From the NCBI GenBank assembly GCA_001899145.1, contig MKVF01000018.1:558001-622000 (forward strand): DNA of 64,000 nt, read 5' to 3'. The position numbers and the translations under genes were made by a program. The notes below the pieces were generated by a model, which was not told where the DNA came from, searched no databases, and saw only the letters and a list, made by a program, of their open reading frames with translations. Source of the stretch: Flavobacteriia bacterium 40-80. GTDB taxonomy: Bacteria; Bacteroidota; Bacteroidia; Flavobacteriales_D; Crocinitomicaceae. Position 1 is the stretch's first letter. The number at the start of each line of letters is the position of its first letter. Shown here piece by piece: positions 30,706 to 41,483 of the stretch.

Positions 30706-31038
30706 TCAGTACATCAGCTGCTGCTTGGAAGAATTTCTCCAGCCCGCCTGACTTTCATAATCAACAAAATAGATCTTCAGATCCGCCTGGCTCTCATATT
30801 TCACGAAAAAGATCTTTTTCTTAGCCTGGCTTTCATAATCAGTAAAAAACCATTTTCCGTCATTTTTTCCCGCCTGACTTTCATACTTTACCTTGAAAAC
30901 TTTCAGATCGGCCTGGCTTTCGTAATCCACGACAAATACTTTTACATCTGCCTGGCTCTCGTAGTTTACAGAATATACTTTCTGAGCGGACAGGAACCCG
31001 GAGAATAACAATAAGCAGAAAAAGATAAGTTTTTTCAT
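30706..31038 (-). CDS. Secreted DUF6150-type repeat protein (six YESQA repeats)
   Basis: 110 residues: a signal peptide (LLLFSGFLSAQ) and then six copies of a short unit ending in YESQA (NYESQAD, DYESQAD, KYESQAG, DYESQAK, KYESQAD, DYESQAG), each preceded by an alternating hydrophobic strand such as KVFVV or KIYFV. The spacing of 12-20 residues suggests a small all-beta repeat fold. I match it to DUF6150 by memory of this repeat; no function is known to me. It is probably co-transcribed with the esterase. Confidence 0.78.
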   Translation of the reverse strand: MKKLIFFCLLLFSGFLSAQKVYSVNYESQADVKVFVVDYESQADLKVFKVKYESQAGKNDGKWFFTDYESQAKKKIFFVKYESQADLKIYFVDYESQAGWRNSSKQQLMY

Positions 31039-31150: not shown

Positions 31151-32428
31151 ATGAAGCATGAATTCGAAGAAAAGCCGGTAAAAAAGAAAAAGTTTTATCA
31201 GCTGCTGTATGTTCAGGTGCTATTTGCCATCGTTATAGGTGTTTCACTGGGATATTTCAGGCCTGATCTCGGGACAAAGATGCAGCCTTTGGGAGATGGC
31301 TTCATAAAATTGGTGAAGATGATTATCGCACCGGTGATATTCCTGACAGTTTCTACGGGAATTGCAGGGATGAATGATCTGAAGAAAGTCGGACGGGTAG
31401 CAACAAAAGCTTTTGTTTATTTTTTCTTTTTTTCTACGCTGGCCCTGATAATAGGATTGCTGGTGAGTCATGTTGTACAGCCAGGTGCCGGCTTGAATAT
31501 TGATCCGTCTTCACTGGACAGCTCAAAAATCAATAAATACGTAGAAGCAGCCAAAGAAAATTCCGTTGTTGATTTTATATTTAATATCATACCGCAGACT
31601 TTGTTCAGCCCCATGACCGGAGATGTAATCCTCCAGGTGCTGCTGGTCGCAATACTGTTTGGTGTCGGGTTAGCGCTGACAGCAGAAAAAAGCAAACCGG
31701 TAATTGATTTTCTGGAGGTGCTGACCATACCGGTTTTTAAAATCGTGGAGCTTTTGATGAAACTGGCTCCGATCGGTGCATTCGGTGCAATGGCTTATAC
31801 CATTGGTGCTTACGGGATTGATTCGCTGATGTATCTCGGGAAATTAGTTATTACCTTTTACCTGACTTCCTTTTTGTTTATTGCTGTGATCCTGGGCTTG
31901 GTAGCTAAGCTGAACGGATTCAATATTTTTAGGTTTATCCGCTACATCAAAGAAGAAGTATTTCTGGTTTTGGGAACAAGCTCTTCCGAACCTGCGATGC
32001 CCGGGCTGATGCGTAAGCTGAATGATGCGGGATGTGATAAAGGTGTTGTTGGTCTGGTAGTTCCGACAGGATATTCATTTAATCTTGACGGAACAAATAT
32101 TTATATGACGCTGGCAGCATTATTTATTGCGCAGGCATGTAATATTCATCTGGAATTTGACCATCTGATGGTGTTGTTGCTCGTGGCAATATTATCTTCA
32201 AAAGGAGCGGCAGGTGTTACTGGAGCGGGATTTATTACGCTGGCAGCAACATTAGCCGTTGTGCCGGAAGTTCCTGTTGCAGGAATGACTCTCATCTTAG
32301 GTATTGATAAGTTCATGTCGGAATGTCGTGCGCTGACCAATGTTATAGGAAATGGCGTGGCATGTGTGGTGGTTTCTAACTGGGAGAATCATCTGGATAA
32401 AGAAAAGCTGAAGGAAAAAATTGGCTGA
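31151..32428 (+). CDS. Dicarboxylate/amino acid:cation symporter (DAACS family, DctA/GltP-like)
   Basis: Inner-membrane symporter for C4-dicarboxylates or acidic amino acids. 425 residues with eight helices and two hairpins. Landmarks: [14 protein letters not shown] (serine-rich hairpin 1), [17 protein letters not shown] (unwound helix TM7 with the NLDGT/NxDGT cation motif) and [21 protein letters not shown] near the C-terminus. The acidic-residue pattern is closer to DctA than to GltP, but the substrate is not certain. The DUF1697 gene begins within its stop codon region. Confidence 0.92.
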
Positions 32429-32957
32429 GTGGCAGAAGTTTGTTGTTTTCCTTCGCGGAATTAATGTTTCCGGGAAGAATATTATCAAAATGGAAGAACT
32501 GAAAAAACAGCTTTCCGCTGCGGGTTTTTCAGAGGTGCTTACCTATATCCAGAGCGGTAATATCGTGTTTAATTCATTGTATAACAAAGAAGAAACGGAA
32601 CGGAAAGTTTCAGAGCTGATCAAGGAAAGATTTCAGCTGGATATTCCTGTTTTTGTCCTTTCTTCTGAAGATTTGACACAGGCATTGGCGAATAATCCTT
32701 TTTCTGCTGACAGCGAACCTTCGAAGCTGTTTTTCACTTTTCTGAAAGGAGAACTTTCTTCAGAATTATTAGAAAAGCTCCGGCAGCAGGATCATGGAGA
32801 GGGAGTCTTTCACCTGGAAGGAAATGTTCTTTATTTCTACCTTCCGGAAGGGATGGCCAGATCCATAATGAATAATAACTATTTTGAGAAAAAGCTTAAA
32901 ATAACAGCTACCGGAAGGAATCTGAATACAGTGAATAAGATGATGTCGATGATCTAG
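32421..32957 (+). CDS. DUF1697 family protein
   Basis: 178-residue cytoplasmic protein of unknown function with the family start [14 protein letters not shown] and end [13 protein letters not shown]. No ATG precedes the conserved FLRGIN motif, so translation must begin at the TTG at 32421, overlapping the last 8 bp of the symporter gene. A second copy of its final 43 codons-worth of sequence is not present, but the last 14 codons recur, diverged, at 38854-38898, on the other side of the AT-rich operon. Confidence 0.85.
32915..32934 (+). repeat. 20 bp direct repeat flanking the accessory operon, left copy
   Basis: AAGGAATCTGAATACAGTGA lies in the 3' end of the DUF1697 gene and is identical to 38853-38872. 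The two copies are 5938 bp apart and bracket the five-gene operon. Confidence 0.8.
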
Positions 32958-33007: not shown

Positions 33008-34438
33008 ATGGGAATCGTTTGTACTTCTTGTCAATATGTCTTTAATACTACTCAAATCCAGAGTCATTTTAATGTCTTCGTGTGTCCTGAATGTCAGGAA
33101 CTTCATTCTTTTGAAAAAGAAGAAATCATTTTTGTAGGTAAATTTAAGCAGGCAGAAATTGAAAATCCATTAGGGATAGATATAGGTGATGTATTCTTGT
33201 ACAATTCCTCAAAATATACAATCACTAATATTTCGAAAAAAGAAAGCATGCAGGATTCTTGGTGGGAGTACGGAGGAATGAACGCTAAGAACGAGTGGTA
33301 TTTTTTTAGCTTTTCGGATAATTTCAAAAAAGGTGTTTTTGGATTAAAAGAATTTAAACTTCCCCAGCAATTTGATCTGAATGCTGCAAAACAACAAGGG
33401 GTCAGGAAGTATAGAAAATATTTCAGATATGATTACATGTATTCTGCAAAAACTACTTTTGCATCGGGAATATTTCAGTATGATATTAGAGAGAAGGTCA
33501 CTTATTATCCTTTTAATTGTGATGTTGAAAATGACAGTAGTTTTCTCAGTATAGAAAGTGCAGGCAAAGAGCTTTTCGGCTATTATGGAAATGCTCTTAC
33601 GATGCACGATTTTTATAATAGATTTGAAAATAAGAAGGATAAAAATAAAAGCAGCTATAGAAATTATTATTTTAATTTCTTTAATATGTGTGTACTTGTT
33701 CTGATGTTTTTTGGACTGATATTTCTGGGATTTCATTATAAGGGATTGTTTTTTGATAAAGAGGTATTGTATGAAAGTACAGAGGTGAAAGAAAATAGTT
33801 TATTCGTTTCAAATTACAGATTAAAGCAGAAGATAGACCTTAGTTGGATTAAATCATCAGAACTGACGATCGATGGTTCTGTTGAATCAAGAACACACCC
33901 GGTTGTATATTTTTCCTTGATAAGTCTATCAAAAAACAGAATGGTCTATTCACAGAGAGTCGGTCTGAACTATAATTCAATTAACTATGCCTCTGCGCTT
34001 AATATATTGATTAATAATCTTGAACCAGGTGAATATGAGTTACGCATTTCGGCAAATACACCAAAACAGATTATTATACCAACGGATTATTTGGAATTTG
34101 ATGTGATGACGGATTTGAGATTTACAGTAGGGCATATTATCAGATATACACCTTTTGTTGTTGCACTTATTGTCGTTATTGTTCTTTTCTATTTAATGTA
34201 TTTGCGTCTGGACAGGAACTATAAGATGAATAAAAAAAGTACTTCTATTGATATTTTACTAATGGACAGATATATGTATATTGTACTTTTTATATTTGCA
34301 GCATTTTTATATACGAGTGCTGAAGTATATAATAACAATTATCGGGGAGCGAATATTGAAACACTGGAAGATGCCAGTTATATAGGACGTTCAAATCACT
34401 ATGTCTACAAATCAGAATCATATTCAAATCATAAATAA
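33008..34438 (+). CDS. DUF4178 domain membrane protein with N-terminal zinc ribbon
   Basis: 476 residues, first gene of the five-gene operon. A zinc ribbon occupies the N-terminus (Cys5, Cys8, Cys26, Cys29). It is followed by a DUF4178-like all-beta region (about 45-200, with GDVFLYNSSKYTITNIS and WWEYGGMNAKNEWYFF), a membrane helix near 215-235, an extracytoplasmic segment of about 130 residues, and two more helices near 375-395 and 415-435. DUF4178 proteins are often encoded with DUF350 and spermidine-synthase-like genes, as here. The function is unknown. A TTG three codons upstream overlaps the -7 element, so the ATG is used. Confidence 0.78.
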   Translation: MGIVCTSCQYVFNTTQIQSHFNVFVCPECQELHSFEKEEIIFVGKFKQAEIENPLGIDIGDVFLYNSSKYTITNISKKESMQDSWWEYGGMNAKNEWYFFSFSDNFKKGVFGLKEFKLPQQFDLNAAKQQGVRKYRKYFRYDYMYSAKTTFASGIFQYDIREKVTYYPFNCDVENDSSFLSIESAGKELFGYYGNALTMHDFYNRFENKKDKNKSSYRNYYFNFFNMCVLVLMFFGLIFLGFHYKGLFFDKEVLYESTEVKENSLFVSNYRLKQKIDLSWIKSSELTIDGSVESRTHPVVYFSLISLSKNRMVYSQRVGLNYNSINYASALNILINNLEPGEYELRISANTPKQIIIPTDYLEFDVMTDLRFTVGHIIRYTPFVVALIVVIVLFYLMYLRLDRNYKMNKKSTSIDILLMDRYMYIVLFIFAAFLYTSAEVYNNNYRGANIETLEDASYIGRSNHYVYKSESYSNHK

Positions 34439-34445
34439 ACCGTAT

Positions 34446-34658
34446 ATGGAAAATTATATTCAAGGAATTTTAAATTCACTTATCTACTGTTTTATAGGAA
34501 TTGTGCTATTACTTGCCAGCTATTTTGTAATTGAAAAAATAACACCGGAAAAATCCTGGAAAGAAATTGTAGAAAATAAAAATCATGCATTAGCAATCAT
34601 TTTTTCGGCTTTAATTATAGGGATCTCTATGATCATCAGTGCAGCGATTCATGGCTAA
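34446..34658 (+). CDS. DUF350 family small membrane protein (YjfL-like)
   Basis: 70 residues with two membrane helices (LIYCFIGIVLLLASYFVI and ALAIIFSALIIGISMIISAAI), matching a single DUF350 unit; E. coli YjfL has more. The ATG at 34446 is 7 bp after the DUF4178 stop. An earlier ATG at 34401 would add 15 polar residues and overlap the upstream gene by 38 bp; I prefer the shorter form because the family starts just before the first helix. It overlaps the next gene by 8 bp. Confidence 0.72.
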   Translation: MENYIQGILNSLIYCFIGIVLLLASYFVIEKITPEKSWKEIVENKNHALAIIFSALIIGISMIISAAIHG

Positions 34659-36174
34659 TAAAAGAAGGTTTCAGTTCTTATTATTAATGGCGGTTTTTAC
34701 AATCGCTACCTGTGGATTAATATATGAATTGATCGCCGGAGCATTAGCAAGTTACCTTTTGGGAGATTCTGTAAGACAGTTTTCTTATACTATAGGTACT
34801 TATATGTTTGCTATGGGAATAGGTTCCTATTTTTCCAAGTTTATAGAAAAAAAATTACTAAAGAGGTTTGTCGAAATAGAAATACTGATCGGAATTGTAG
34901 GAGGAATAAGTTCCACGTTATTATTCCTGTTATTTCAGCAGGGTAGCTATTTTCAGGTGGTTTTGTATTTTTTACTGGGCTTGACAGGTATTCTGGTTGG
35001 GATGGAAATCCCGATTTTGATGAGGATTTTGAAAGATAAAGTAGAGTTCAGACAATTGGTTGCGAATATTTTTACGTTTGATTATATAGGGGCGTTGCTT
35101 GCTTCTATTTTATTTCCTGTGGTTCTTGTTCCCAAGTTAGGTCTGATAAGTACTTCTATAGTTTTTGGCATTATAAATATTGTTGTCGGTTTACTGTTGA
35201 TCTATTTATTCCGTAAGGAACTAAAAGATACGTTTATTCTTACATTTAAGTCCATTGTTGCTTTTTCCGGATTATGCATATTGCTTTTTTTTAATAAAGA
35301 AGTTTTAGATTATAGTGAAAGAAACTTATACAACGGGAGTATAGTTTATAGTCATACAACTCCTTATCAGAAGATTGTTTTGACGAATCAGGGGGCAGAT
35401 TTTCAGCTCTATCTGAATAATAATTTGCAGTTTGATACAAAAGATGAATATCGCTATCATGAATGTCTGGTACATCCTGTTATGGGATTTGCTGCATCAG
35501 TTGAGAAGGTATTAATTCTTGGAGGAGGCGATGGACTGGCGGCTCGTGAGGTATTGAAATATGATGAAGTTAAATTTGTTACACTGGTAGATTTAGATGA
35601 AGGTATGACGCAATTATTTGCAAAGAACCCAAGATTGATGGCTTACAACAAACAATCATTGACGAATCCGAAAATGGAGGTAATTAATCAAGATGCTTTT
35701 TTGTGGGTGAAGAATAATAAAACAAAATACGATGTGGTAATCATTGATTTTCCGGATCCGACAAATTACAGTATAGGAAAATTATATACCAATTATTTTT
35801 ATGAGTGTCTTAAACAATCACTTAAATCAGAATCAGTAGTAAGTATTCAGACAACTTCGCCATTTACAGCGCCTAACGCTTATTGGTGCATTAATGCCAC
35901 TATTTCAGCTATTTATCCTGAGGTTAGAGCGTATCATGTATATGTTCCGTCTTTTGGAGAATGGGGATTTAACTTATTCAGTAATGATCCGAAGCAATCA
36001 TTTCGGTATGTGAAACGACGGATGGATAATCTGAAATTTTACGATTATCAATTTGAATCCTATACTGATTTCAAAAAAGATATGCTCCCTGCTTCAGAAC
36101 TGGAAATAAATCGTCTTGATAATCAGGTGTTGGTTCGTTATTTTGAAGAGGACTGGTCAAAATTGAGAGAATGA
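34651..36174 (+). CDS. Membrane-anchored polyamine aminopropyltransferase-like protein
   Basis: 507 residues. The first 200 or so form about seven membrane helices; a spermidine-synthase-type domain follows. That domain has the SAM-family loop GGGDG at residues 291-295, an acidic DLDEGM that should bind the ribose of the nucleoside, and DFPDP at 366-370, which holds the catalytic acid of aminopropyltransferases. Family members transfer an aminopropyl group from decarboxylated SAM to an amine. No SpeD (SAM decarboxylase) gene is in the operon, so the donor must come from elsewhere or the chemistry differs. It overlaps the genes on both sides by 8 and 4 bp. Confidence 0.83.
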   Translation: MANKRRFQFLLLMAVFTIATCGLIYELIAGALASYLLGDSVRQFSYTIGTYMFAMGIGSYFSKFIEKKLLKRFVEIEILIGIVGGISSTLLFLLFQQGSYFQVVLYFLLGLTGILVGMEIPILMRILKDKVEFRQLVANIFTFDYIGALLASILFPVVLVPKLGLISTSIVFGIINIVVGLLLIYLFRKELKDTFILTFKSIVAFSGLCILLFFNKEVLDYSERNLYNGSIVYSHTTPYQKIVLTNQGADFQLYLNNNLQFDTKDEYRYHECLVHPVMGFAASVEKVLILGGGDGLAAREVLKYDEVKFVTLVDLDEGMTQLFAKNPRLMAYNKQSLTNPKMEVINQDAFLWVKNNKTKYDVVIIDFPDPTNYSIGKLYTNYFYECLKQSLKSESVVSIQTTSPFTAPNAYWCINATISAIYPEVRAYHVYVPSFGEWGFNLFSNDPKQSFRYVKRRMDNLKFYDYQFESYTDFKKDMLPASELEINRLDNQVLVRYFEEDWSKLRE

Positions 36175-37772
36175 GGCGCAGACAGTTTATCCGTTTGACA
36201 ATGCTTGCATCTGTTGGTATGATCTTATTAAAATCATGCCGTGATACAGCACTTCGCTTTGTACTGAAGATTACCGGAACTAATCATCTGCTGGGACACA
36301 GGTTATGGACAAAGGATTTTCCCGTACCGACTGAAAAGGAGCGATATAAATTTGTTATTATAGGAGGAGGAGTTAGTGCATTAAGTGCCGCCAGAGCCTT
36401 GATAAAGACAAATGAAGAGGATTTTGTGCTGTTTGAGCTGGAGGGAATTGCAGGAGGAAATTCTTCTTCCGGAAGTAATAATTATTCGGCATATCCACTG
36501 GGAGCGCATTACGTGCCAGCAATTAATCTTCATCATAAGGAACTGGCTGTCTTTTTTGAAGAAGAAAATATTATCACTGGTTATCAGGATGGGAAAGCAG
36601 TTTATCATCCTGAATATGTGTGTCATTCACCACAAGAACGGTTATTTATTGATTATCAATGGGTAGAAGGTATTGAGCCGAATAATAGATTGGATGATGA
36701 TTGTAACGGGCAATTTCTTCGCTTTTCTTCGCAAATGAAGGACTATCGTTCTGCTAAAGGAACAGATGGACGTTTTATTTTTGATTTACCTCTTGCATAT
36801 TCTTCAACAGACGCAGACTATTTGACATTAGACAAACTATCAATGAAGGATTGGATGGAGCAGGAAGAATATATACATCCTAATTTGTTATGGTATGTTA
36901 ACTACTGCTGTATGGATGATTATGGTCAGGGAATAGATCGTGTGAGTGCCTGGGCAGGCATTCATTATTTTACTTCGAGAAAACACGATTTATACAGTGA
37001 ACATCAAGAACTCTTAACGTGGCCTGAAGGAAACGGTTTTTTGATTAAATGTTTGGAAAAATATGTGAAGGGTAAACAATTTCTTCAACATGTTGTTTAC
37101 AATATAGATGTACAGAAAGACAAAGTTGTGTTGAATGTTTTTGATGAAAGACGAAATATTTCAAAACAGATTTATGCAGAAAGAATTATCCTGGCGACAC
37201 CACAATATATTAACAGATACCTTTTACCTGATCGCAAGATTAATTATGGGAAATTTTGCTATTCTCCTTGGATTTTGGCAACGCTTGTATTAGAACGATT
37301 TCCTTTGAGCGAAGGAGCTGAATTAAGTTGGGAAAATGTTATTTTTCAGGGAAAAGGGCTGGGGTATATTTATAATCAGCATCAGAATTTGACTCAATAT
37401 GAATCTCCTTTTGTAATTACTTATTACCGGGCGTTAGATGGAGGAAATCTGAAAGAAGAACGTAAGAAGTTACAGCGATATTCAGATGAATATTGGAAGA
37501 ATGAAGTATTAGAAGATCTAAAAACAGTTCATCCGGAAATTGAAAAGTATTTGGTTTCTATTGAAATTTTTAAACGCGGACACGGAATGATTAGTCCCTC
37601 GATCAATTTTCTGTTTTCTGAAGATAAGAAGGAAGCATTGAAACCGATTGGAGATAAAGTTTTTTTTGCACATACGGACTTGAGTGGAATATCTCTTTTT
37701 GAAGAGGCTTTTTATCAGGGAACAAGAGCTGTTGAACAAATGTTGAATGATGAAAAAATACTGGATATATAA
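36171..37772 (+). CDS. FAD-dependent amine-oxidase-like protein with Tat/lipoprotein-type signal
   Basis: 533 residues. The N-terminus RRRQFIRLTMLASVGMILLKSC resembles a twin-arginine signal (RRQFIR) ending in a possible lipidated Cys23, which would place a folded flavoprotein outside the cytoplasmic membrane. The FAD-binding GGGVSALSAARAL starts at Gly65, followed by FELEGIAGGNSSSG, where the ribose-binding Glu is expected, and a C-terminal FFAHTDLSGISLFEEAFYQG that matches the flavin-contacting end of this superfamily. The substrate is unknown; an amine or polyamine is suggested by the upstream gene. The ATG overlaps the previous stop (ATGA). Confidence 0.8.
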   Translation: MRRRQFIRLTMLASVGMILLKSCRDTALRFVLKITGTNHLLGHRLWTKDFPVPTEKERYKFVIIGGGVSALSAARALIKTNEEDFVLFELEGIAGGNSSSGSNNYSAYPLGAHYVPAINLHHKELAVFFEEENIITGYQDGKAVYHPEYVCHSPQERLFIDYQWVEGIEPNNRLDDDCNGQFLRFSSQMKDYRSAKGTDGRFIFDLPLAYSSTDADYLTLDKLSMKDWMEQEEYIHPNLLWYVNYCCMDDYGQGIDRVSAWAGIHYFTSRKHDLYSEHQELLTWPEGNGFLIKCLEKYVKGKQFLQHVVYNIDVQKDKVVLNVFDERRNISKQIYAERIILATPQYINRYLLPDRKINYGKFCYSPWILATLVLERFPLSEGAELSWENVIFQGKGLGYIYNQHQNLTQYESPFVITYYRALDGGNLKEERKKLQRYSDEYWKNEVLEDLKTVHPEIEKYLVSIEIFKRGHGMISPSINFLFSEDKKEALKPIGDKVFFAHTDLSGISLFEEAFYQGTRAVEQMLNDEKILDI

Positions 37773-38775
37773 TAAGACGTTTGACCTAATATGGATTTTA
37801 CTGCCTCCGATTTTTATCTGGTTTATTGTTATGTTTTTTCATCAGCAATTGCAGGAAATACAAGAAGGATATTCTTTCTATACTTGGTTGATCTTAATTG
37901 TTTTTATTGATGTTGCTCATGTATACGCTTCGATTTTCCGTTCATATCTTGTAAAAGAAAAATGGAAGAAACACAAACTGCTTTTTTGTATTATTCCCAT
38001 CACCTGCTTTTTGCTGTCTCTTCTTCTGTACAGTTTCGGGGCATCAGTATTTTGGAGTGTGTTAGCTTATGTTGCTGTTTTTCATTTTATCAGGCAACAA
38101 TATGGTTTTCTACGTTTATACAACCGTAATGAAAGACTCTCAAAAGGTGAAAAATTGCTGGATACTGTTGTTATCTATAATGCGACTGTCTATCCGATGC
38201 TTTATTGGTTTTTACACGCAGACAGAAGGTTTACATGGTTCATGCCCAATGAATTTATTCATTTGAATCTTCCTGTATTAGAGCCTGCCCTCTTTTCACT
38301 GTATAGCATAATTTTGATTACTTATATGCTCTATCTGCTCGTTTTTAGAATCCGAAAAAAAGAAGCAATTAATTATCAGAAGTTGTTATTGATTTCTGGA
38401 ACTTATTTGTCATGGTATTTCGGGATAGTTCATTTTAATAATGAATTGGTATTTACCTTACTGAACGTAATTTCTCACGGAATTCCATATATGGCATTAG
38501 TTTATTTTACGGAATTTAAAATGAAATCTCATGATTTTCGGATCATCGGAAAAGTAAAACAATCCATTTCTGTACTCGTGTTTGTCGGAGGATTACTTTT
38601 TTTGGCTGTCATTGAAGAATTTACATGGGAAACTTTGGTTTGGAAAGAGCAGGTGGGATTGTTTGAAATTAATTGGGAAGAGATTTGGGTTGTTCCTTTG
38701 CTTGCATTGCCGCAGTTTACTCATTATATTTTGGATGCTTTTATTTGGAAAAGAAGTTATTCGAAATATGAATAA
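37747..38775 (+). CDS. Polytopic membrane protein with intramembrane histidine motifs, unknown function
   Basis: 342 residues with about eight to nine helices. Polar residues recur inside or at the ends of helices: DVAH (Asp55, His58), HFIRQQYG (His113, Gln117, Gln118), His157, His229, SHGIPYM (His244), and HYILDAFIWK (His326, Asp330, Lys335). This spread of His and Asp resembles integral-membrane di-metal oxidases or hydroxylases, but I cannot name the family. It overlaps the flavoprotein gene by 26 bp and ends the operon. The second ATG (37750) is an equal start choice. Confidence 0.7.
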   Translation: MMKKYWIYNKTFDLIWILLPPIFIWFIVMFFHQQLQEIQEGYSFYTWLILIVFIDVAHVYASIFRSYLVKEKWKKHKLLFCIIPITCFLLSLLLYSFGASVFWSVLAYVAVFHFIRQQYGFLRLYNRNERLSKGEKLLDTVVIYNATVYPMLYWFLHADRRFTWFMPNEFIHLNLPVLEPALFSLYSIILITYMLYLLVFRIRKKEAINYQKLLLISGTYLSWYFGIVHFNNELVFTLLNVISHGIPYMALVYFTEFKMKSHDFRIIGKVKQSISVLVFVGGLLFLAVIEEFTWETLVWKEQVGLFEINWEEIWVVPLLALPQFTHYILDAFIWKRSYSKYE

Positions 38776-38852
38776 TATTTATATGAGATAGGGAATAATT
38801 ATTAATCAAGCTTTTATACTTAAAATCATTCTCAATAAAATACTATTTGTAG

Positions 38853-38872
38853 TAAGGAATCTGAATACAGTG
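38853..38872 (+). repeat. 20 bp direct repeat flanking the accessory operon, right copy
   Basis: Identical to 32915-32934. Sequence upstream of this copy has no similarity to the DUF1697 gene, so homology begins at this repeat. Confidence 0.8.
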
Positions 38873-38898
38873 AGAAAAATGATGGAAATGCTCTCTTA
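38854..38898 (+). pseudogene. Remnant of a DUF1697 3' end
   Basis: Read in the same frame, these 15 codons give RNLNTVRKMMEMLS and a TAG stop, matching the last residues of the intact DUF1697 protein ([13 protein letters not shown]). The rest of the gene is absent. The differences after the shared 20-mer show that it is not a recent perfect duplication. Confidence 0.7.
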
Positions 38899-39247: not shown

Positions 39248-40123
39248 ATGGCAACAAAACACCTTGAAGCAATTATTCAGCCGCGGCCTGCGCACTATGT
39301 GGGAGACGGTTTCAGAGTTCATAACTTTATACCGGGTTTTGAACGTCTGAATATGCAGCGAATGGATCCGTTTATTATGCTGGATTATAATTCCAAATAT
39401 GAATTTCCTGCGTCAACGGTACCAAAAGGAGTCGGTGTGCACCCACACCGTGGATTTGAGACAGTGACGATCGCTTATCAGGGAAGGGTACAACATCATG
39501 ACAGTTCCGGCGGTGGCGGAATTATCGGACAGGGAGATGTGCAGTGGATGACGGCGGCAAGCGGTGTCCTGCATAAAGAATATCATGAGAAAGAATGGTC
39601 TGAAAAAGGCGGCATCTTCCAGATGGTTCAGCTGTGGGTAAATCTTCCTGCAAAAGATAAGATGAGCCAGCCTAAATACCAGTCGATTGAGAATGCTTCG
39701 ATGAAACGGGTAGATCTGGGAGAAAACGGTTATGTGGAAGTTATTGCCGGCGAATACAACGGCGAAAAAGGACCGGCTTTTACGTTTACACCTGTAAATA
39801 TGATGAATGCTAAACTGAAAGCAGGAGGAAAAGCGACATTTAGCTTTCCGGCTCATTATACTACGGCAGGAATTGTAATTGAGGGAAATATTATCGTTAA
39901 CGGCGAGAAAAAAGTACCTACGGACTATATGCTGCTGTTCGAAAATCAGGGAGAAGAATTTGTAATTGAAGCAGAAGATGACGCTGTCGTTTTGATTTTC
40001 AGCGGCGAGCCGATCAAAGAACCGATTTTTGCTTACGGACCGTTTGTAATGAACACACGAGAAGAAATAATTCAGGCATACGAGGACTTTAATAACGGAA
40101 AATTTGGTACATTGGAAGAGTAA
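39248..40123 (+). CDS. Pirin family protein
   Basis: 291-residue bicupin. The N-terminal cupin has the iron-site residues His65 and His67 (VGVHPHRGFETVT), His109 and Glu111 (VLHKEYHEK); the GIFQMVQLWVNLP segment is typical of the family. Bacterial pirins include quercetin dioxygenases and regulators of pyruvate metabolism; the role here is open. Monocistronic, with its own strong promoter and Shine-Dalgarno sequence, which is rare in this window and suggests high or inducible expression. Confidence 0.93.
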   Translation: MATKHLEAIIQPRPAHYVGDGFRVHNFIPGFERLNMQRMDPFIMLDYNSKYEFPASTVPKGVGVHPHRGFETVTIAYQGRVQHHDSSGGGGIIGQGDVQWMTAASGVLHKEYHEKEWSEKGGIFQMVQLWVNLPAKDKMSQPKYQSIENASMKRVDLGENGYVEVIAGEYNGEKGPAFTFTPVNMMNAKLKAGGKATFSFPAHYTTAGIVIEGNIIVNGEKKVPTDYMLLFENQGEEFVIEAEDDAVVLIFSGEPIKEPIFAYGPFVMNTREEIIQAYEDFNNGKFGTLEE

Positions 40124-40196
40124 ATTTTGAAGGAAGAATCAATGAATTTTGAATCCCGGATTTATTAAAATTTTGACACCTCTATCTTGTCCAACA

Positions 40197-40260
40197 TCTA
40201 ATGTCTAACGTCTAATATCTAATGTCTAATTGCCTTCCATCTAACATCTTAAAGTCTTAA
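40197..40260. repeat. Heptanucleotide tandem repeat, second locus
   Basis: Five clean units (TCTAATG, TCTAACG, TCTAATA, TCTAATG, TCTAATT) at 40197-40231, then degenerate TCTAACA and TCTTAAA units. It is the same heptamer as the array at 6776-6858 and again lies between two genes. Confidence 0.75.
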
Positions 40261-40288
40261 AATCATAATATCCTAAAATCCACACAAT

Positions 40289-40606
40289 ATGAAACCAGAA
40301 TTTGAAAATATTGAATTAATTGAAAATACAGCAGAAAGCCGCTTTGAATTACCTTTTAACGGTCACATTGCATTTATAACCTACGAGCAGGAAGGAAATG
40401 CTTTGGCTTTGACACATACAATTGCTCCTGATGAATTAAAAGGAACAGGAGCAGCACAGGCACTGGTAGAAAAAGTATTTGCGAAGGTGGAAGCTTCCGG
40501 GAAGAAAATTCATCCCTATTGTCCCTATATCTTTGCTTACATCCGTAAGCACCCGGAATGGAAAAGATTGGTAGATCCTGCTTTTTCCGGCTATAACGGG
40601 CTTTAA
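40289..40606 (+). CDS. Small GNAT-like N-acetyltransferase (YjdJ/PF14542 type)
   Basis: 105 residues forming a minimal acetyltransferase domain. The acetyl-CoA loop is in APDELKGTGAAQALVEKVF; the core PYCPYIFAYIRKHPEW is diagnostic of this short group. These proteins carry out acetylation of unknown small molecules or proteins. There is no neighbour in an operon. Confidence 0.88.
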   Translation: MKPEFENIELIENTAESRFELPFNGHIAFITYEQEGNALALTHTIAPDELKGTGAAQALVEKVFAKVEASGKKIHPYCPYIFAYIRKHPEWKRLVDPAFSGYNGL

Positions 40607-40850
40607 AAGGAGATCCGGAGCTTTTCAGGAAAAATCCTTTTCTCATCTTTAACACTGATATAGTGGACCTTTTATACATTATTAAATAAAATCCCGGAGG
40701 TATTTATATATTTTTTAAGTTAATATTATTTAGATTCCTAAAAAACGAAAAATCAGATTTAATAAATGCAAAAAAATATGGGCGTCTAATGTGAGTATGG
40801 TAATTTCATGATGTAAACAACGACATAAGTTAAACAAATACGAAGAAATC

Positions 40851-41483
40851 ATGAAATTATTAAGAAACACATTTTTTATTGCAATTACTTTATTTGCATT
40901 TCAATCTTTCGGTCAGAACATCACGTTTAGAGACCGTCTGACATTCGGTTTAAAAGCAGGTATTAACGTTAACATGATCTATGATGAGGAAGCTCAGGAT
41001 TTTACGGCTGACCCGTTAGTAGGTTTTGCCGGTGGGGCTTTCGTAACGCTTCCTTTAGGTAAATTCTTAGCGCTTCAACCGGAGGTAATGTTCTCCCAAA
41101 AAGGGGTTAAAGCTTCCGGATCCGTATTAGGAACATCTTATACCTGGAAGAGAATGGTAAATTACCTGGATATCCCGTTGTTATTTGCGATTCGCCCGGC
41201 TGAATTTATCAATATTTATGTCGGTCCGCAATTCGGGTTCCGTTTGAGCCAGAAAGACTCTTTTACATGGGGAGATAACGGAGTGATTAATCAGGAAGAT
41301 TTTGATACGGATATCCGTAGATTTATGCTCGGAATTCATACAGGTCTTGATTTTAATATCCATCATTTTGTAATATCTCCGCGTGTTGGGTTGGATTTGC
41401 TGGATAATAGAGGAGACGGAAGCTCTACAGATCCGAGATATAAAAACCTGACCTTTCAGTTTACGCTGGGCTATAGATTTTAA
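40851..41483 (+). CDS. Outer-membrane beta-barrel protein (PorT-like, OMP_b-brl_2)
   Basis: 210 residues with a signal peptide (ending QSFGQ). The mature protein has the pattern TFGLKAGINVNMIY, LQPEVMFSQKG and NYLDIPLLFAIRP, and ends in an aromatic FTLGYRF, typical of the eight-strand Bacteroidota barrel family. No specific function is visible; PorT itself belongs to the same broad family but lies in other contexts. The 244 bp upstream holds no clear promoter. Confidence 0.85.
   Translation: MKLLRNTFFIAITLFAFQSFGQNITFRDRLTFGLKAGINVNMIYDEEAQDFTADPLVGFAGGAFVTLPLGKFLALQPEVMFSQKGVKASGSVLGTSYTWKRMVNYLDIPLLFAIRPAEFINIYVGPQFGFRLSQKDSFTWGDNGVINQEDFDTDIRRFMLGIHTGLDFNIHHFVISPRVGLDLLDNRGDGSSTDPRYKNLTFQFTLGYRF

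Follow-up and report, generated by a model that had tools for sequence, protein, structure and literature searches.

The closest described relative of the system considered here is the group-2 PspA/CesT-Tir operon, which encodes a membrane spermine/spermidine-like synthase, DUF350 and DUF4178 proteins and the Ctha_1186 lipoprotein (Ravi et al. 2024, PMC11237479). Escherichia coli carries the YjfIJKLMC and YgiBC systems, in which a DUF1190 protein is combined with an ATP-grasp peptide-spermidine ligase. The operon studied here (positions 33008-38775) lies in a 64,000-nucleotide (nt) window, the whole stretch of DNA that was analysed, from contig MKVF01000018.1 of Flavobacteriia bacterium 40-80, and is of a kind partly described in the available text on group 2. 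The two have in common a SpeE domain fused to seven transmembrane (TM) segments, DUF350 and DUF4178, and the Ctha_1186 lipoprotein is the probable counterpart of a small protein, here called the tail, that usually ends in lysine. As far as that part of the paper goes, the window operon differs in lacking PspA, in adding a flavoprotein of the twin-arginine translocation (Tat) type and a TM protein, and in carrying as its tail a small TM protein fused to DUF4178. From sequence comparison we hypothesize, with a little less than even confidence, that the operon encodes an envelope protein-modification system in which the membrane aminopropyltransferase (g3) would aminopropylate the C-terminal lysine of the tail and the flavoprotein (g4) would act on the product. 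As far as the literature searched shows, the Lys-ended tail, the matching switch in its last residue beside ATP-grasp ligases and the predicted outer topology are new: no mention of a Lys-ended tail was found there (an earlier mention in print is possible), nor one of the C-terminal lysine of the Ctha_1186 lipoprotein in the available part of Ravi et al. 2024 (PMC11237479).

The five genes form a conserved operon. All lie on the plus strand where an initial annotation of this DNA had placed them, overlapping or 7 bp apart: g1 (33008..34438), g2 (34446..34658), g3 (34651..36174), g4 (36171..37772) and g5 (37750..38775). The ATG of g2 falls 7 nt past the g1 stop, g2 and g3 overlap by 8 nt, g3 and g4 by 4 nt, and g4 and g5 also overlap; the start of g2 was placed at 34446 because the alternative listed start, 34401, would overlap g1. 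The single TACCTTTG promoter proposed ahead of the operon was rejected, since TANNTTTG, with 74 occurrences in the window, is at the level expected by chance (66 ± 8); the end of the proposed site is also only 6 nt away from the g1 ATG, which would make the mRNA almost leaderless. Two features had been missed, namely the tail fused to the end of g1 and the SpeD gene that normally comes first in relatives.

Conservation was assessed in several genome samples. Of 392 genomes of the phylum, 24 had a match to g5, which was strong (E below 1e-100) in 11, the own genome among them. Searches with the membrane SpeE, independent of g4 and g5, matched 27 of the 392 phylum genomes and 42 of the 396 genomes sampled from the class; these samples share genomes, and each includes the own genome. 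SpeE matches, g5 loci, plasmid records and viral-contig records together gave 78 operons in 75 loci, with two additional loci without a full SpeE kept outside this set; the plasmid records are partly near copies (three Burkholderia, two Novosphingobium). The full layout is SpeD, DUF4178, small tail protein, DUF350, membrane SpeE, Tat flavoprotein and TM protein, and this order was found in all ten other strong g5-selected loci and in Flavobacterium akiainvivens. The neighbourhood search thus bears out that the genes recur together. The last two genes had been regarded as a peculiar addition, a view that does not hold: among the 78 operons the flavoprotein adjoins SpeE in 42, the TM protein in 32 and both in 31. 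Plasmid records of Novosphingobium, Burkholderia and Gemmatirosa also show the flavoprotein next to the membrane SpeE; the g5-type TM protein had no match in the plasmid records and was found only in Bacteroidota, where most searching took place. In locus L052 (5942-6635), two small genes that by eye resemble a RelE/ParE-type toxin-antitoxin pair stand between SpeE and the flavoprotein.

SpeD is absent from the window operon, and PspA from both operon and genome, as had been noted for the operon (PspA_IM30 had no match in the window genome and matched 9 of 14 control genomes; CesT/Tir was not searched). Since SpeD is present in all ten g5-selected loci L044-L053 and in L008, its absence looks like local loss, and the suggestion that the missing SpeD marks a distinct variant was discarded. 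The window operon has probably lost SpeD, and decarboxylated S-adenosylmethionine (dcAdoMet) can come from a fused SpeD-SpeE encoded elsewhere in the genome (G000:C6:202073-203182).

The g3 product consists of seven N-terminal TM segments followed by a SpeE domain. It scores 125 bits against Pfam Spermine_synth (cut-off 22.9), and its match to NF002956, 'polyamine aminopropyltransferase', reaches 626 bits (cut-off 472) over residues 5-504 of 507. Its Q, YHE, GGGDG, D, DxxDP and Q residues are common to the spermidine synthase of the same genome and to solved synthases. The dcAdoMet motif (GxGDG) and the catalytic Asp pair (DxxDP) are invariant in an eight-row alignment, and in a 76-row alignment of membrane SpeE sequences the Asp pair and the glycines of the motif reach at least 97% conservation; by alignment, the catalytic residues of an aminopropyltransferase are therefore retained, in agreement with the original assignment. 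The loop past DxxDP differs, reading DFPDPTNYSIGKLY in g3 and DGSDPVGPAEGLF in the genome's spermidine synthase, so the acceptor site may be altered.

Topology was examined with the 76 of the 78 sequences that are 480-560 amino acids (aa) long. The seven TM segments are hydrophobic in 97-100% of them, and Lys plus Arg residues number 10.45 in the loops that are cytoplasmic under an N-in reading and 1.05 outside, with the same direction in 76/76. The N-in orientation given by this positive-inside count and an odd number of TM segments place the catalytic domain outside the cytoplasm. Charge counts likewise predict an N-in/C-out orientation for the small tails (28 agree, 5 disagree and 5 are tied; Wilcoxon p = 2e-5). 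By sequence rules, the aminopropyltransferase domain, the tail and the flavoprotein are all predicted to lie outside the cytoplasm. In the membrane domain of g3, the acidic residues E30, E81, E123 and D148 (511-aa ORF numbering, ORF being open reading frame) are at least 97% conserved.

In relatives, DUF4178 and DUF350 are separated by ~200 nt. In each of the first 11 loci (L008 and L044-L053) this gap holds a separate gene for a single-TM protein that ends in [FY]YHK; nine of these tails are 57-64 aa long and two ORFs have longer possible starts. In the window, the tail is fused to the end of g1 (34256..34435, plus strand) and consists of a TM segment followed by the C-terminus ...ESYSNHK, with the Lys codon at 34433-34435; the sister locus L095 carries a similar fusion ending ...VSGSHK. 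Over the 78 operons, 59 tails end in Lys, three end in GG beside an ATP-grasp gene (L108, L109 and L182), and none was recognised in 16. The 59 comprise 38 small TM proteins, each checked as encoded (31 ending HK, 6 GK and 1 VK), 18 lipoproteins, which all end in GK and prevail in the other main branch of the SpeE tree, and three known only as fusions (window, L095, L103). In general, the tail is anchored in the membrane, as a small protein or a lipoprotein, and its flexible C-terminus ends in Lys. The family spans 48-80 aa, and three examples that were scanned gave no Pfam or NCBIfam model and one sub-threshold Pfam match; a small tail gene of Novosphingobium, ending PSHK, is annotated as hypothetical (WP_193828724.1). 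Both types are merged in the operons of L168 and L169, where a lipoprotein tail ending GYGK accompanies a DUF4178-fused tail ending YFGK. A strict link between a His-Lys end and the presence of the flavoprotein was rejected, as L096 and L098 have HK without an operon flavoprotein and L009 has WGK with one.

A location-based scan found a TM ORF in 33 of 42 gaps, each of the 33 having one that ends in Lys, for an expectation of 0.12 in shuffled gaps; six other TM ORF candidates in the scanned gaps, in different frames, end in residues other than Lys. The nine remaining gaps belong to the fusions in the window, L095 and L103, to five loci in which the ORF is displaced or masked by an over-long neighbour (L096, L110, L114, L178, L181) and to L153, a frame-shifted locus without a tail ORF. 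The DUF4178, flavin adenine dinucleotide (FAD) and TM proteins of L153 are also broken into several frames, and this locus may be decaying or poorly sequenced. As a control, C-terminal Lys was counted in the SpeD, DUF350, SpeE, FAD, TM and ATP-grasp proteins from these loci and found in 8 of 272.

The last residue of the tail changes beside a different enzyme class. YgiC relatives were sampled in 10 of 146 plasmid records, nine of which have an adjacent candidate tail protein (DUF1190, unannotated or hypothetical neighbours). With these nine, the two E. coli tails (ygiBC, yjfMC) and L108, L109 and L182, 14 tails beside ATP-grasp polyamine ligases of the YgiC/YjfC type were compared: 12 end in GG, two in GS and none in K. 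RefSeq annotates E. coli YgiC and YjfC as peptide-spermidine ligases. Since a ligase needs an acceptor with a carboxyl group and an aminopropyltransferase one with an amine, the GG or GS ends beside a ligase and the Lys ends beside SpeE fit the chemistry.

In the proposed mechanism, SpeD (here the SpeD half of the fusion) would make dcAdoMet in the cytoplasm, and the membrane part of g3, with its conserved acidic residues, may carry or admit this donor to an aminopropyltransferase domain sitting on the outer face of the inner membrane. The substrate would be the membrane-anchored, flexible tail ending in a C-terminal lysine; addition of the aminopropyl group to the lysine amine is proposed because the four-carbon amine side chain resembles the acceptor putrescine. 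The modified tail might be oxidised by g4, exported by Tat to the same side, and g5 might pass on electrons or process the product, with DUF350 and DUF4178 as possible scaffold or accessory parts. A broader formulation, held more tentatively, is that of a hypusine-like envelope modification: an outer, membrane-bound SpeE homologue would aminopropylate the tail lysine, in many Bacteroidota the Tat flavoprotein would oxidise it, and the last residue of the tail would tell which chemistry is used, the sister systems using an ATP-grasp ligase on a C-terminal glycine.

The g4 protein matches Pfam Amino_oxidase with 27.2 bits (cut-off 19.8), conserves the GxG and E of the FAD motif, and has the fold of the MAO/putrescine-oxidase/SpdH type (Foldseek best E 2e-20, ~15% identity). 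Its N-terminus reads RRRQFIR, a twin-arginine-like motif is present in 36 of 38 aligned homologues, and TatC is encoded in the window genome (217.6 bits); this supports the export signal noted in the initial annotation, and export is predicted. Because Cys23 is conserved in the same 38-row alignment, a lipid anchor is suggested. Classical flavin amine oxidases of the MAO/PAO/LSD1 type possess a conserved catalytic lysine. No alignment column among the 38 homologues is more than 50% Lys, so this lysine is judged absent from the g4 family and the label 'amine oxidase' is uncertain. The earlier idea that a product is oxidised outside the membrane accordingly stands as to the predicted Tat-type location and is doubtful as to the amine-oxidase role.

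The polytopic g5 has no match in Pfam or NCBIfam and conserves D55, H58, H113, H244, E290, E291, H326 and D330 (32 rows; 342-aa ORF numbering); the description 'His-rich membrane protein' is apt for the membrane part and too strong for the histidines. Its predicted model is fair (predicted local distance difference test score, pLDDT, 80), with no solved fold matched (best PDB match E = 3.1). The weak g5 matches that were fetched are unlinked paralogues or one fragment: no SpeE or FAD relative was found near them in the eight loci L054-L061, and no shared neighbour was seen by eye in L055-L057, L060 and L061. One lone distant paralogue, of 421 aa, lies in the own genome (L055, contig C27) and adjoins two near-identical tandem small genes that are helix-turn-helix-like. 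The g1 protein has N-terminal zinc-ribbon-like CxxC pairs and matches Pfam DUF4178 weakly (21.4 bits, under the cut-off of 25); despite this score, its DUF4178 region groups into one profile with annotated DUF4178 proteins. The small membrane protein g2 (70 aa) matches Pfam DUF350 with 55 bits (cut-off 26), and its homologues are 70-74 aa long in 10 of 11 loci and 98 aa in L053.

Several points weigh against tail modification. An outer catalytic domain requires dcAdoMet outside the cytoplasm, where it is not known to occur, and the window operon is without its own SpeD. No tail was recognisable in 16 of the 78 operons, namely L010, L091, L115, L116, L142, L153, L166, L167, L173-L176, L180 and the SpeE-TM-FAD copies of L163, L164 and L165. 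Some of the 16 sit near contig ends, and three are Burkholderia records, closely related to each other, that hold SpeE and the flavoprotein. The window tail ends in SNHK, not the common YHK. DUF4178 proteins, which are outside the control, end in Lys in 15 of 80 cases, or 10 of 75 once five fused tails are removed. The switch from K to G within the membrane-SpeE tree is probably a single event: L182, L108 and L109 form one clade, so the switch counts are not independent, and in all three the tail and ligase genes lie outside the SpeE operon, next to it in divergent orientation. The g4 family appears to be without the MAO/PAO/LSD1-type lysine, and many operons that have a K-ended tail lack g4 and g5, which makes oxidation dispensable for the core.

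Two groups of the operons without a recognised tail show further features. In L163, L164 and L165, two paralogous membrane SpeE operons converge, one of the lipoprotein type with SpeD and the other SpeE-TM-FAD without a tail of its own. L167 and L173-L176 form a membrane SpeE clade in which no DUF4178, DUF350 or tail was recognised, and in L167, L173 and L175 SpeE is directly preceded by a gene for a protein of 715-747 aa.

The alternative that survives best, though we consider it unlikely, is that free polyamine is made at or outside the membrane, that the tail senses or binds the polyamine or the enzyme, and that the flavoprotein degrades the polyamine. The SpeE domain of g3 is a true aminopropyltransferase homologue, and the flavoprotein fold resembles putrescine oxidase and spermidine dehydrogenase, both of which speak for it; however, the SpeD-SpeE fusion of the genome could already make spermidine, and the recurrent C-terminal Lys and the GG ends beside ATP-grasp ligases are left unexplained. 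That the membrane SpeE is usually accompanied by a Lys-ended tail suggests an enzyme that modifies the tail rather than one that makes free spermidine. It is improbable that a membrane lipid (phosphatidylethanolamine or an ornithine or glycine lipid) supplies the acceptor amino group, with the tail as a scaffold. In favour of this, g3 carries a membrane domain, and the integral membrane protein g5 conserves Asp/His/Glu residues in an enzyme-like way; against it, the tail C-terminus goes unexplained and the ten families followed around SpeE include no lipid enzyme (lipid genes were not looked for among other neighbours). The lysine could instead be a recognition or sorting signal for a protease, carboxypeptidase or export, not a modification site, for which its usual His or Gly neighbour, a short motif as in such signals, and its retention even in tails fused to DUF4178 would speak; we give this little credence, as the end residue varies with the nearby enzyme class and no protease or sorting enzyme is among the ten tracked families (other neighbours were not searched). 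A defence-system reading was set aside: the PADLOC match (mad2, 53 bits) spans only residues 284-469 of g3, the SpeE part.

The window copy was likely acquired horizontally, as judged from its placement in the SpeE tree, the low GC content of the operon and a 59-nt flanking repeat. Its SpeE is sister to that of L095 (support 100/98), within a clade containing Flavobacterium, while L010, from its own family, and L009, from its own order, fall in the distant lipoprotein-type branch, and L182, also from its own order, in the ATP-grasp clade. The operon has 31-38% GC and the flanks mostly 39-44%, except for 40000-40999 at 34%. Upstream of the operon and outside the module lies a DUF1697 gene (32421..32957, plus strand), whose 3' end (32897-32955) is partly repeated beyond the operon (38836..38894, plus strand; 75% over 59 nt), a likely insertion scar; this gene was found at E <= 1e-30 in just two of 40 family genomes, own included. 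Elsewhere in the window (30706-31038, minus strand), a short secreted-looking protein consists of a YESQA(D)xK motif repeated about six times.

Membrane SpeE homologues are at present annotated as polyamine aminopropyltransferases, and the Lys-ended tail gives a concrete candidate substrate. If tail modification is correct, a class of protein modification outside the cytoplasm would be added, a role of AdoMet decarboxylase beyond free polyamine synthesis would be suggested, and these annotations would name the wrong product.

Deoxyhypusine synthesis on eIF5A places a polyamine-derived group on a protein lysine amine, with spermidine as donor of an aminobutyl group; the proposed system has a different enzyme, donor and site, and the likeness is one of analogy only. 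Flavin amine oxidases (MAO, putrescine oxidase, SpdH) and g4 share their fold and FAD motif, and g4 differs from them in its Tat-type signal and in the conserved lysine not found among the 38 homologues. The E. coli YjfIJKLMC and YgiBC systems differ from the window operon in using an ATP-grasp ligase, in their GG tail ends and in having no membrane SpeE; a GSP_synth ATP-grasp ligase had no match in the window genome and matched two of 14 control genomes. They resemble it in DUF350 (yjf operon), in a membrane-anchored protein with a Gly/Ser/Arg-rich tail and in the presence of a polyamine enzyme.

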